Source: Tunturibacter psychrotolerans
GTDB taxonomy: Bacteria > Acidobacteriota > Terriglobia > Terriglobales > Acidobacteriaceae
Assembly: GCF_040359615.1 (NCBI RefSeq)
Contig: NZ_CP132942.1
Span: forward strand, 1,984,001 to 2,048,000
DNA: 64,000 nt
Direction: 5' to 3'
A program made the position numbers and the translations under genes. The notes under the pieces were generated by a model. That model did no database searches and had not been told where the DNA came from. It was given only the letters and a program-made list of their open reading frames with translations. Shown here piece by piece: positions 35,798 to 39,380 of the stretch; the stretch's first letter is position 1, and each line of letters opens with the position of its first letter.

Positions 35798-35898
35798 CGT
35801 GTGTGGAGAGTTCCTCCTTAGGAAGAGTAAATGTGTCGTGTGGGGGGTCGCGGTTGGACGGAGGGCGTGAGTTCATGGATTTTTATTGTTTCGCGCTA

Positions 35899-35912
35899 AC
35901 TAATCGATTAGT
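35899..35912. promoter_or_regulatory. Palindrome ahead of blaI: candidate BlaI operator
   Basis: ACTAAT-CG-ATTAGT is a perfect palindrome; one extra matching base on each side makes it 16 bp (35898-35913). It lies 67 bp before the blaI start, where BlaI/MecI-type repressors normally bind. An identical pair of half-sites is found at 37797-37810. Confidence 0.65.
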
Positions 35913-35979
35913 TGTTCGTCTTTCCTGTAAGTAGATTCTGTCGCCCCGTGGGTTGAGGAAGACGGAAGGTTGAGAGGTT

Positions 35980-36375
35980 ATGCCCCCAAAGAAGTCCATC
36001 ACGTTGACAGAGGCTGAGTTACGGCTCATGAGGATTCTGTGGGCGCGTGGCGAGTCGGCTGTGGGAGAGCTGGTGGCGGCCATGCCAGAGGCGCTGGCCT
36101 ATAACTCGGTGCTGACGACGATTCGGATCTTGGAGCAGAAGGGCTACGTGCGGCACCGGCAGGAGGGGCGGGCGTTTCTGTATATCCCATGCGTTGCCGA
36201 GCAGGAGGCTAGCCGGTCGGAGGTTCGTCATATGATGCAGCGGTTCTTCGGCAACTCGCGGGAGAAGTTGTTGCTTTCGCTGCTTGGGGATGATGAGGTG
36301 ACGACGGAGGAGTTGCAACGGCTGAAAGAAGCGATTGCAGCGGCAGCGGACGACCGCGCGGGAGACGAACTGTAA
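35980..36375 (+). CDS. blaI: BlaI/MecI/CopY family repressor
   Basis: 131 aa winged-helix repressor. The DNA-binding domain (about 1-75) reads LTEAELRLMRILWARGESAV, then ALAYNSVLTTIRILEQKGYV, with the recognition helix in the last part; the C-terminal dimerisation helices cover 80-125. These repressors dimerise on short palindromes and are cleaved or released when a partner M56 membrane peptidase senses a signal. GAGAGG precedes the ATG. The stop overlaps the start of the M56 gene (TAATG). No beta-lactamase gene lies in the window, so the name indicates family and not the role. Confidence 0.93.
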   Translation: MPPKKSITLTEAELRLMRILWARGESAVGELVAAMPEALAYNSVLTTIRILEQKGYVRHRQEGRAFLYIPCVAEQEASRSEVRHMMQRFFGNSREKLLLSLLGDDEVTTEELQRLKEAIAAAADDRAGDEL

Positions 36376-37751
36376 TGGGGATGGACTCGAGCCTGTTGCA
36401 CGGTGTTGAGAGTCTGTCGCGGGTGGCGGCTGGCTCGGTGGTGTCGGGCTTGTGGCAGGGGCTTGTGTTGGCTGCTGCGGTATGGATCTGTTTGCGATTG
36501 ATGCCGAAGACGACGGCTGCGATCCGGTTTGCGGTGTGGACGGCGGTGTTTGGGGTTCTTGCGTTGCTGCCGCTGTTGCATGCGTATGGATTGCGGGGTG
36601 ACGGCGAAGCGTCAGCACATGGCGCGTTCGTGCAGGTGGATGTGCGATGGAGTCTTGCTATTGCGGTGCTGTGGTTCGGTGTATCGATGGTGCGGGCGGT
36701 GAAGCTCGCGATCGGTGCGGTGCAACTGCGCGGAATATGGAAACGCTCAACGCCGGTTGAGATGAGCACAGGTTGGGATTCTGCGTTAGTTGCAGCCGGG
36801 TGGCGTGGAGCGACCGTATGCACGTCGGCGGATGTGGACCGGCCTAGCGTGATTGGGTTTTTTTCTCCGCGGATTTTGATTCCACGAGAGATGTTTGAGC
36901 GGCTTACTACGAGCGAATTGGAACATATTGTTCTGCATGAGATGGGACATCTGCGGCGGGCAGATGATTGGATCAATCTGTTGCAGAAGATCAGCCTTGT
37001 GCTGGTGCCGCTAAATCCGGTGCTGTTGTGGATTGAACGGAGGCTGTGCTTCGAACGCGAGCTGGCCTGTGATGATGCGGTGCTGCGTTTTACGAAGGCC
37101 CCGAAGGCTTATGCAACATGCCTGACGAATCTGGCCGAGCAGCGGCTGGGGCGTAGGGCTGCTGCGCTTTCGCTGGGTGCGTGGGAGAAGCAGTCCGAGT
37201 TGGTGCGGCGGGTGCATAGCATTTTGCGACGTCGCGAAGGGATGAGCCGGACGCAGGCGGGCGTGATGATGAGCGTGCTAGTGCTTGCGGTTGTTGGCGG
37301 TGCCGCCGGACTTTCGCGTTGCCCACAATTTGTTTCGTTCTCTGGTGGAGCGGTGTCGATCCATGAAGAGGCGCAGAGTTTTGCTTCGGGCGATGCGACA
37401 TACCAGCCTGTCGCGTTTCATCCGTCTGCAGCGGCCATTCCGGCTGCGGGCATGGCACATGAGACGCTGTTGAAAGTTTCTATGCCGGTGGCGACGACTG
37501 TGCAGGCTACGCGGCCTAAGACTCAGGTAGCTGCTAAGCGACATCGTCCCCTGCATGCGGCATCGTTGATGCGCGTGAAGCAGGATCGCGCAATGCAACA
37601 GACCCAGCGGATGGAACGATGGGTGGTGCTGACATCGTGGCAGGAGTCATCGCAGCCAAGGATGGTGCTTACCGTGTCGGGTGGGCGAGTGTTTTCTTCT
37701 TCGTTTGCAGCCGTGCCTACCGAGGGCGGCTGGCTGGTCATTCAACTTTAA
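36375..37751 (+). CDS. M56 family membrane metallopeptidase (BlaR1-like)
   Basis: 458 aa. Four membrane segments: about 19-35, 49-66, 90-110 and one after the protease domain near 300 (VMMSVLVLAVVGGAAGL). The zinc site HEMGH (His188, Glu189, His192) and RELACDDAV are those of the M56 family, whose cytoplasmic loop cleaves the BlaI partner after signal sensing. The extracytoplasmic C-terminus (about 310-458) has no penicillin-binding sensor domain; it is basic and ends in a beta-rich stretch, VLTVSGGRVFSSSFAAVP. So the signal is probably not a beta-lactam in the BlaR1 manner. Overlaps blaI by one base. Confidence 0.9.
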   Translation: MGMDSSLLHGVESLSRVAAGSVVSGLWQGLVLAAAVWICLRLMPKTTAAIRFAVWTAVFGVLALLPLLHAYGLRGDGEASAHGAFVQVDVRWSLAIAVLWFGVSMVRAVKLAIGAVQLRGIWKRSTPVEMSTGWDSALVAAGWRGATVCTSADVDRPSVIGFFSPRILIPREMFERLTTSELEHIVLHEMGHLRRADDWINLLQKISLVLVPLNPVLLWIERRLCFERELACDDAVLRFTKAPKAYATCLTNLAEQRLGRRAAALSLGAWEKQSELVRRVHSILRRREGMSRTQAGVMMSVLVLAVVGGAAGLSRCPQFVSFSGGAVSIHEEAQSFASGDATYQPVAFHPSAAAIPAAGMAHETLLKVSMPVATTVQATRPKTQVAAKRHRPLHAASLMRVKQDRAMQQTQRMERWVVLTSWQESSQPRMVLTVSGGRVFSSSFAAVPTEGGWLVIQL

Positions 37752-37784
37752 CTAAAGCTGTTCAACCCGTTTTGAGGAACGATC

Positions 37785-39380
37785 ATGTCATTTGAAACTA
37801 ATAAATTAGTAGGTAAGGCGGGACGGGTTGCCGTTCCTGCAGGTGCTGCCGCGGCTCTCGTGTTGGCAGCTGGGATGTTCGTTCATCACAATGGGGTTCA
37901 TGCGGCCATGATCTCCTCGCCGATCTCGTCGCCGGCACCGATGGATGACAACAGTGTTTCGTCACTGGTTGCTTTGGATAATGCCGTTGAGGCGGTTGCG
38001 GCGCGGGTTACACCTGCGGTGGTGAACGTTGCTGTTACGTCGCGTGGCTCGGCGGAGCACCAGGTTGGTGAGGATCAGGAGGATGGTCAGGAGCAGGGAC
38101 CGCAAGGACAGAGCCTGCCGCCTGGTCTTCAGCAGTTCTTTGGGCAGCTGCCTCCAGGGATGATGCAGCAGCAGCGTCCGCAACAGCCGCAGCTTGAGCA
38201 TGGGATTGGCAGCGGAATTATTATTTCGCCCGATGGATATATTGTGACCAACAATCACGTGGTCGATGGCGCGGTGGAGATGCGCGTGACGCTGCATGAC
38301 CGGCGAGTGTTGAAGGCGAAGCTGGTGGGGCACGATCCGCTGACTGATCTCGCGGTGATCAAAGTGGATGCGCATGATCTGCCGAGCATCGCGTGGGGTG
38401 ATTCGACGAAGCTGAAGCCGGGACAGACTGTTTTGGCGTTCGGCAGCCCGTTTGGATACTTTCAGTTTTCGGTGACGCGTGGAATTGTAAGCGCGGTGGA
38501 TCGGCAGAATCCTTATCGCGATGATGCGCGGAAGCCGGGTGGATATATTCAGACGGATGCTGCGATCAATCCGGGCAACTCTGGTGGACCGCTGGTGAAT
38601 GCGCGCGGCGAGCTGGTGGGGATCAATACTTTCATCATCTCGAATGGTGGTTCGTTTGCCGGTGCTGGGTTTGCCATTCCTTCGCAGATTGTGCGGACGA
38701 CGGCGGAGCAGCTGATCAAGACCGGCACTGTGCATCATGGGTATCTCGGTATCAGCATGAACGATGTGACGCCTGAGAATGCGAGCTTCTTCAACCTGAA
38801 GGATGCGACGGGTGCGATTGTGGCGCAGATAACGCCTGACTCGCCTGCTGCGCGTGCGGGGCTGAAGAATGGCGACGTGATCGTCGAGTTGAATGGACAG
38901 AAGATCGTGAACGGTGGCGCGCTCCAGGTTGCGGTGAGCGAGGATACTCCGGGAACTTCGATTGATCTGGGAATCATTCGCAATGGCTCGCAGCAGACTG
39001 TGAAGGTGCAGGTTGGCGAGTTCCACAAAGAGGCCGAAGTAGCGAGCGATAGTGAGGGTGCGACACCGCAGAAAGCGAAGCTTGGTCTTGCTGTGGCAGA
39101 GCTAACTCCGGATGTGCGGCAACAGCTGCATATTCCTTCGCAGGTGCAGGGAGTTGCGATTCAGAGTGTTCGCCCGGGCAGCCCGGCCGACGATGCGAGC
39201 CTTGCTCCTGGCGACGTGATCCTTGAGGTCGATCGTCATCCGGTGACTTCGGCGGAGCAGTTCGTGAATGCGGCGCATGCGAATCCGGATGGGAAGGATT
39301 TGCTGCTGTTGGTCTGGTCGCGAGGCGGAGCAAGTTACCGCGTGGTTCATCCTGATTCGGGGAACCAAAGCGGTATGTAG
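37785..39380 (+). CDS. degP: DegP/HtrA-type serine protease with two PDZ domains
   Basis: 531 aa. Periplasmic protease/chaperone for misfolded envelope proteins. An N-terminal membrane segment (VPAGAAAALVLAAGMFV) leads to the export site. The trypsin-like domain carries His158 (TNNHVVDG), Asp188 (LTDLAVIK) and Ser266 (NPGNSGGPL). PDZ1 (about 320-410) and PDZ2 (about 435-520) follow. An acidic Gln-rich loop (about 90-130) precedes the protease core. GAGGAACGATC supplies the ribosome binding site. It follows the M56 gene by 34 bp, so it may share the blaI transcript, and it also carries the second operator candidate. Ends at a strong terminator. Confidence 0.95.
   Translation: MSFETNKLVGKAGRVAVPAGAAAALVLAAGMFVHHNGVHAAMISSPISSPAPMDDNSVSSLVALDNAVEAVAARVTPAVVNVAVTSRGSAEHQVGEDQEDGQEQGPQGQSLPPGLQQFFGQLPPGMMQQQRPQQPQLEHGIGSGIIISPDGYIVTNNHVVDGAVEMRVTLHDRRVLKAKLVGHDPLTDLAVIKVDAHDLPSIAWGDSTKLKPGQTVLAFGSPFGYFQFSVTRGIVSAVDRQNPYRDDARKPGGYIQTDAAINPGNSGGPLVNARGELVGINTFIISNGGSFAGAGFAIPSQIVRTTAEQLIKTGTVHHGYLGISMNDVTPENASFFNLKDATGAIVAQITPDSPAARAGLKNGDVIVELNGQKIVNGGALQVAVSEDTPGTSIDLGIIRNGSQQTVKVQVGEFHKEAEVASDSEGATPQKAKLGLAVAELTPDVRQQLHIPSQVQGVAIQSVRPGSPADDASLAPGDVILEVDRHPVTSAEQFVNAAHANPDGKDLLLLVWSRGGASYRVVHPDSGNQSGM
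37797..37810. promoter_or_regulatory. Second ACTAAT-NN-ATTAGT site, inside the start of degP
   Basis: ACTAAT-AA-ATTAGT, with the same half-sites as the palindrome before blaI, begins 12 bases after the A of the degP ATG and covers codons 5-9. These codons (ACT AAT AAA TTA GTA) are AT-rich, unlike the rest of the gene, as if the DNA sequence were under selection. A repressor bound here would block degP transcription or elongation. Confidence 0.6.

Follow-up and report, generated by a model that had tools for sequence, protein, structure and literature searches.

The operon and its palindromes

The stretch analysed here (the window) comprises 64,000 nucleotides (nt) of the Tunturibacter psychrotolerans genome (assembly GCF_040359615.1, contig NZ_CP132942.1, positions 1,984,001 to 2,048,000). 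It contains three consecutive genes on the plus strand: blaI, a gene for a zinc metalloprotease of the M56 family (M56) and degP. Two palindromes are located in this operon, O1 before blaI and O2 at the start of degP (Table 1); their exact pattern is ACTAATNNATTAGT and its exact core is ACTAANNNNTTAGT. O1 is 67 bp from the ATG of blaI (35980). The start of M56 overlaps the stop of blaI, and a gap of 33 bp separates M56 from degP. O2 begins 12 nt downstream of the degP ATG (37785), and the codons beneath it include TTA and GTA. Judged by the comparisons below, the three genes very likely form a BlaI regulon.

Table 1. Features of the blaI-M56-degP operon, with one candidate site elsewhere in the genome (positions are those of the window unless stated)
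Feature	Position	Strand	Basis or conservation
ECF-sigma-like promoter: -35 GCTAAC (35895-35900), 16-nt spacer, -10 CGTC (35917-35920)	35895..35920	+	motif spelling
Operator O1, ACTAATCGATTAGT	35899..35912	.	exact in 16 of 26 genus loci, within 2 mismatches in 26 of 26
blaI, repressor of the BlaI/MecI family, 131 aa	35980..36375	+	PF03965; aligned with solved MecI and BlaI
M56 zinc metalloprotease, 458 aa, HExxH, BlaR1-like membrane and protease part	36375..37751	+	PF05569
Codons of the M56 C-terminal tail, GWLVIQL-COOH	37728..37748	+	GW-four residues-L end in 41 of 44 clade A loci
degP, Do-family HtrA serine protease with two PDZ stretches, 531 aa	37785..39380	+	TIGR02037, PF13365, PDZ_2 twice
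Operator O2, ACTAATAAATTAGT, inside degP codons 5-9	37797..37810	.	exact in 20 of 26 genus loci
Promoter motif and one-mismatch operator before the PD40 gene	L003 1501-1547 = G000:C1:271891-271937	minus

The blaI product carries the Penicillinase_R domain PF03965 (E 8.3e-30; score 103.9 against a cut-off of 22.6 bits). An inverted repeat before the own gene is a trait of the BlaI/MecI family and is present here, as O1, at all 64 degP-bearing loci described below. M56 has a profile match to BlaR1 (8exs) and its best Foldseek match is also BlaR1 (8exq); on these matches it is BlaR1-like in the membrane and zinc-protease part only. No penicillin-binding sensor domain was found in the Pfam or NCBIfam searches, as the preliminary description had claimed. 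M56 scores 64.1 with the NCBIfam model blaR1_generic (cut-off 400), the best stretch being residues 147-305. The predicted model of M56 (mean predicted local distance difference test, pLDDT, 62.8) has helices at residues 5-42, 48-74, 90-124 and 292-314; residues 312-443 are of very low confidence, and the chain ends in a low-confidence beta meander. The degP product scores 455.5 bits with TIGR02037, over the cut-off of 416.2, and shows the Do/HtrA arrangement of a trypsin-like domain (PF13365) followed by two PDZ_2 stretches. The operon contains neither a beta-lactamase gene nor mecA; its third gene is degP.

Both palindromes have the sequences and positions that the preliminary description gave, and its statement that the pair occurs nowhere else in the window holds even with two mismatches allowed. 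At this threshold, at least two matches were obtained in 7 of 100 shuffles of the window, and the window alone is only suggestive evidence for the pair. In the 5.64-Mb genome, the exact pattern occurs at two places, O1 and O2, where about 0.05 exact sites per genome would be expected by chance (our estimate, from the window shuffle mean scaled to exact matches). One mismatch adds two further places, and a control pattern, read backwards, occurs at one place with up to one mismatch. Because of this genome-wide count, with both exact sites at one locus, the two palindromes are confirmed as real.

The genus search covered 36 other genomes, 25 with a BlaI of at least 64% identity and 11 without. 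In all 25 loci, as in the window, degP lies behind M56, giving 26 loci for comparison. The next-best matches before blaI have 3 to 6 mismatches. O2 is within two mismatches in 25 of 26 loci and has three in L053. A scan for the palindrome in this genome and its relatives, suggested in the preliminary description, found both positions conserved. The exact search covered 61 genomes, 37 of them from the genus, and every one of the 36 exact places in the genus is either O1 (16) or O2 (20), which rules out a wider genus regulon of exact sites. No exact site occurs in the 11 genus genomes without this BlaI (completeness below 90% in three of them), where the closest DegP relatives reach only 37-40% identity. 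The sole exact place outside the genus, ACTAATTAATTAGT, is located at L063 (G058:C16:26727-26740) in a genome from another family of the class. Among named relatives, matches were obtained from Edaphobacter lichenicola and Granulicella. In the nearer named loci (L177-L200, 24 loci, partly the same strains as other loci and scored for the exact core only), the core is found before blaI in 22 of 24 and at O2 in 16 of the 22 with degP.

At the family level, a sample of 300 genomes, taken as the same for both proteins, was searched with cut-offs of E 1e-30 for BlaI and 1e-100 for DegP. Both proteins were found in 163 genomes, BlaI only in 11, DegP only in 7 and neither in 119. A further ten DegP matches, with E values of 1e-90 to 1e-100, are probably paralogues and were not counted; counting them would raise the number of genomes with DegP only to 17. 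The loci compared number 67, of which 40 come from the family sample and 27 from the first search (the window, the 25 genus loci and L062), and 64 carry degP. L062, L128 and L151 are without degP in the available stretch; L128 and L151 reach the contig edge towards degP, and L062 does not. At all 64 degP-bearing loci, O1 and O2 are both within two mismatches of the core. Each operator was taken as the best match, for O1 within about 260 bp upstream of blaI and for O2 in the interval that starts 600 nt inside the M56 match and ends 60 nt inside the degP match, a procedure that favours finding something. We divided the loci by cut-off, not by a tree, into clade A (BlaI identity at least 60%, 44 loci) and clade B (below 60%, 20 loci). 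In clade A, O2 is located inside the first degP codons; in clade B, it is located before degP.

The promoter motif at O1 and the proposed action at O2

O1 occupies most of the spacer of a promoter motif and overlaps its -35 element. We take the spelling TAAC-N16/17-CGTC to be that of an extracytoplasmic function (ECF) sigma factor promoter (AAC-type -35, CGTC-type -10, 16-17 nt between). In clade A, this motif lies within 60 bp of O1 at 39 of 44 loci; at O2 it is found in 0 of 44 within 60 bp and in 0 of 44 at 60-180 bp before the site. The longer spelling GCTAAC-N16/17-CGTC is not enriched in the genome (9 places, O1 included, against 63 for the backwards-read control). At L135, the operator before blaI is located upstream of the promoter motif rather than inside it, and TGCTAAC-N16-CGTC is kept without an operator; because the two lie apart there, we treat the promoter motif as separate from the operator. 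In clade B, CGTC follows O1 by 19-20 nt at 16 of 20 loci and, by eye, TTAC or TTGAC is located about 16 nt before CGTC in many. As the operator overlaps the promoter core in both clades, the simplest reading of these motifs is that BlaI at O1 would occlude the promoter.

The motif scan found no separate degP promoter of the O1 type near O2. Because O2 lacks the motif, it most likely acts on a moving polymerase, as a roadblock, or together with O1, in a loop; a roadblock is probably the mode of action. In 13 of 20 clade B loci (L148, L150, L152, L154-L156, L158, L159, L162-L164, L166 and L167), a run of at least four T ends 10 or 11 nt before O2. This distance may be the mark of a stalled polymerase or part of a promoter. 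The T-run was rejected as an intrinsic terminator, as no G+C-rich hairpin precedes it by eye; no terminator scan was run.

As an alternative, degP could have its own BlaI-controlled promoter near O2, of a type missed by the motif scan, and O2 would be an ordinary promoter operator. The T-run at its fixed distance could be part of such a promoter, and a loose TTG / TA...T spacing that would fit this arrangement is present near O2 at 2 of 44 loci in clade A and 2 of 20 in clade B. We nevertheless regard it as unlikely, since the TAAC-N16/17-CGTC motif is absent near O2 throughout clade A, the sequences between M56 and degP share little, by eye, apart from the ribosome site, constraint on the last M56 codons is only mild and O2 in clade A is downstream of the ATG.

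Looping is a quite improbable alternative. The lac operators O1 and O2 act together by DNA looping, and the two sites here could likewise cooperate through a loop of 1.7-2.3 kb that strengthens repression of the operon promoter. The presence of two similar operators at 64 of 64 degP-bearing loci, with a spacing of 1728-2317 bp, is consistent with such a loop, but the spacing varies widely and O2 is tied to the start of degP, not to a set distance from O1. We also know of no tetramerisation of BlaI/MecI dimers.

BlaI as the likely binder and O2 as a DNA site

The palindrome was followed to 28 distant loci in Eremiobacterota, cyanobacteria, Verrucomicrobiota and other acidobacteria, where BlaI is 44-57% identical. 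CTAANNNNTTAG with up to one mismatch is located before 25 of these 28 blaI genes, 11 of them exact; random 130-bp windows contain it at this threshold in 70 of 5401 cases, 6 exact. No degP was found at the 28 loci in the stretch covered (up to 5 kb downstream, less in several). In this comparison, the palindrome is seen to travel with blaI, not with degP, and BlaI is the likely binder of O1 and O2. The BlaI regulon of blaI, M56 and degP proposed in the preliminary description is strongly supported by the presence of both sites at 64 of 64 loci with degP, by the absence of exact sites from the 11 genus genomes without this BlaI and by the palindromes at the distant loci; a simple operator of a degP promoter, as part of that proposal, has become less likely.

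Another regulator sharing the palindrome, such as the second BlaI of this genome, is very unlikely to be the true binder. The second BlaI has an M56-TonB partner, and similar CTAA-N4-TTAG palindromes are located upstream of it. However, 10 of the 11 genus genomes without the BlaI studied here hold other BlaI relatives, yet no exact site, and relatives of this blaI in other phyla carry the palindrome in the absence of degP. At the locus of the second BlaI (L005, G000:C1:5525610-5528945), the CTAA-N4-TTAG palindromes have another outer base.

The letters of O2 are conserved in the degP frame. In clade A, the degP ATG is 12 nt before O2 in 43 of 44 loci and 6 nt before it in one. The codons within O2 are ACT in 43 of 44, AAT in 42 of 44 and TTA in 37 of 44, with CTA in the other 7; the background shares in the rest of the three genes are 0.128 (ACT), 0.33 (AAT), 0.015 (TTA) and 0.030 (CTA), or 0.045 for TTA or CTA. 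Codons 4-10 of degP contain the sole runs of five informative codons without synonymous change (347 informative codons in 10 sequences, the window and nine relatives). In clade B, where degP starts were assigned by eye and script from the ribosome site and start codon, the palindrome precedes the gene; a ribosome-site-like stretch follows it at a distance of 6-9 nt in 13 of 20 loci and at shorter or longer distances in 6, and no such stretch was recognised in one. Because the same letters are kept both in a leader (clade B) and in an open reading frame (clade A), these alignments indicate that selection on O2 acts on the DNA. AT-rich codons early in genes often help translation initiation and O2 occupies such a region, but O2 as a by-product of these codons or of the N-terminal peptide is hardly credible and already largely refuted, as a peptide or translation constraint is ruled out by the palindromic letters frozen in clade A, rare Leu codons (TTA or CTA in 44 of 44) included, and by the position before the gene in clade B. 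At the degP start of L056 (G024), O2 and the aligned remainder of degP (from query residue 24) are in different reading frames, which reflects either an assembly error or a real break.

Of the two one-mismatch places in the genome, one, ACTAGTCAATTAGT, follows an exact GCTAAC-N16-CGTC at a distance of 7 nt; the gene downstream of both encodes a PD40 beta-propeller protein that appears to be secreted. We estimate the chance of a site and a motif meeting within 50 bp at about 3 in 10,000, from the 9 motif places in the genome. Motif and site recur in G032 (L230) before the gene of a 90% identical PD40 protein. The PD40 gene has a match in only 3 of 41 genus genomes, our own included, and one of these three matches is partial, at 42% identity. 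This gene may be a further, lineage-specific target of BlaI. The other site, ACTGATAAATTAGT (L004 1501-1514), is probably due to chance; it is flanked on one side by an open reading frame and on the other by a glutamine-amidotransferase-like gene, by eye of the anthranilate synthase type.

Proposed regulation and comparison with known systems

The two sites, their near-exclusive location, the DNA-level conservation at both ends of the operon and the travel of the palindrome with blaI are established computationally. We consider it probable that the operon is self-regulated through two BlaI operators, with occlusion at O1, a roadblock at O2 and release of BlaI by M56. Without a signal, a BlaI dimer on O1 would sit in the ECF-like promoter and keep transcription of all three genes from starting. 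At O2, a second dimer would stop polymerases that escape O1, or that read in, before degP, and repression of degP would be tighter than that of blaI and M56. In response to a signal across the membrane, M56 would inactivate BlaI, as BlaR1 does in Staphylococcus aureus; both operators would empty and DegP would be made. The steps that we infer are the binding of BlaI, its inactivation by M56, the roadblock and the envelope signal.

Several observations weigh against this mechanism. Looping or an unrecognised degP promoter would fit the data too, beside the roadblock. In S. aureus, BlaI is inactivated by cleavage between Asn101 and Phe102 (PMC9834060, in excerpt); Ser-Leu is aligned to Asn-Phe in the BlaI studied here, and the site is not conserved. 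At the chosen cut-offs, 11 of 174 genomes with BlaI have no DegP match and 7 of 170 with DegP have no BlaI match. The loci are related by descent and the counts are not independent. Two loci run counter to the operon as an invariable set. L062 (BlaI 54% identical), which belongs to a different family of the order, carries blaI and M56 but lacks both degP and the palindrome. In L214, from the Acidobacteriaceae (BlaI 51% identical), blaI and M56 are present and no degP was found in 5 kb.

In operons with degP, the C-terminal tail of M56 is conserved and hydrophobic and resembles a PDZ ligand. The tails of L061, L145 and L146 deviate from the GW form and end in L, L and I; all 44 clade A proteins have L or I as the last residue. 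In clade B, the last residue is I in 11, T in 5, L in 3 and V in 1 of 20, preceded by Ser in 14. Where the blaI operon lacks degP, the M56 proteins are mostly longer and differ in their C-terminal parts, and only 2 of 23 finish with L or I (6 of the 29 loci gave no complete M56, three with no match and three cut by a contig end). In a profile of 41 clade A sequences (L061, L145 and L146 were left out for their deviating tails, and count as misses in the 41 of 44 of Table 1), the last 18 residues of M56 have a mean column identity of 0.67, against 0.23-0.36 per 20-residue block from 321 to 440. The C-terminus of BlaR1 is outside (PMC9834060, in excerpt) and, by homology, the M56 tail would be periplasmic. 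There it may be read by the DegP PDZ stretches, closing a feedback loop. A titration loop of this kind is a tentative proposal, which we hold to be possible but doubtful: DegP would hold the M56 tail; unfolded envelope proteins would draw DegP off, M56 would cut BlaI and the operators would empty, and DegP would rise until free DegP silences M56. The plain alternative is that the tail is a folded beta strand.

Recognition of such a tail has parallels. In stress sensing by DegS and AlgW, the PDZ domains of these HtrA proteases recognise hydrophobic C-terminal tails, such as YQF for DegS and WVF for AlgW (PMC8545111, in excerpt). The M56 tail, ending with VIQL, is similar; it differs in belonging to the antirepressor protease itself, and the contact would be a predicted one. 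BlaI regulons of Clostridium thermocellum resemble the present system in the few non-coding sites per genome, in autoregulation and in a motif that deviates little; as far as the available passages of PMC8457756 go, those operons are tied by inference to the beta-lactam response or peptidoglycan synthesis, not to DegP. Among the open PMC papers listed, none deals with a BlaI-controlled degP or htrA operon, as judged by title, the opening of the abstract and, for PMC7593790, excerpts.

The operon raises two questions: to what an M56 without a penicillin-binding sensor responds, and by what means a repressor site acts when it lies within a downstream gene of the same operon. With O2 placed differently, the two clades provide a natural experiment on operator placement. 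Transcription roadblocks are reportedly formed by CodY. LacI bound downstream of a start site in Escherichia coli stops the elongating polymerase, and Mfd removes the stalled polymerase (PMC4132739, in excerpt). In contrast to LacI and CodY, the roadblock at O2 would be one deduced from site placement.

A close likeness is with the staphylococcal blaI-blaR1 and mecI-mecR1 systems. All have the repressor beside an M56 protein with BlaR1-like transmembrane and zinc-protease parts, and in all of them a short inverted-repeat operator lies upstream of the gene for the repressor. BlaI/BlaR1 is the textbook example of a beta-lactam switch, and DegP is known to be controlled through sigma-E and Cpx. 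In many Acidobacteriaceae, a large soil family, kin of BlaI/BlaR1 appear to control an HtrA quality-control protease with no antibiotic part, which would add another route for tuning DegP to those through sigma-E and Cpx. Unlike the staphylococcal bla and mec systems, the present operon has no penicillin-binding sensor that was found, and no beta-lactamase or mecA; its output is an HtrA protease, its palindrome is the exact pattern of O1 and O2, and a second operator is located in or just before the third gene.

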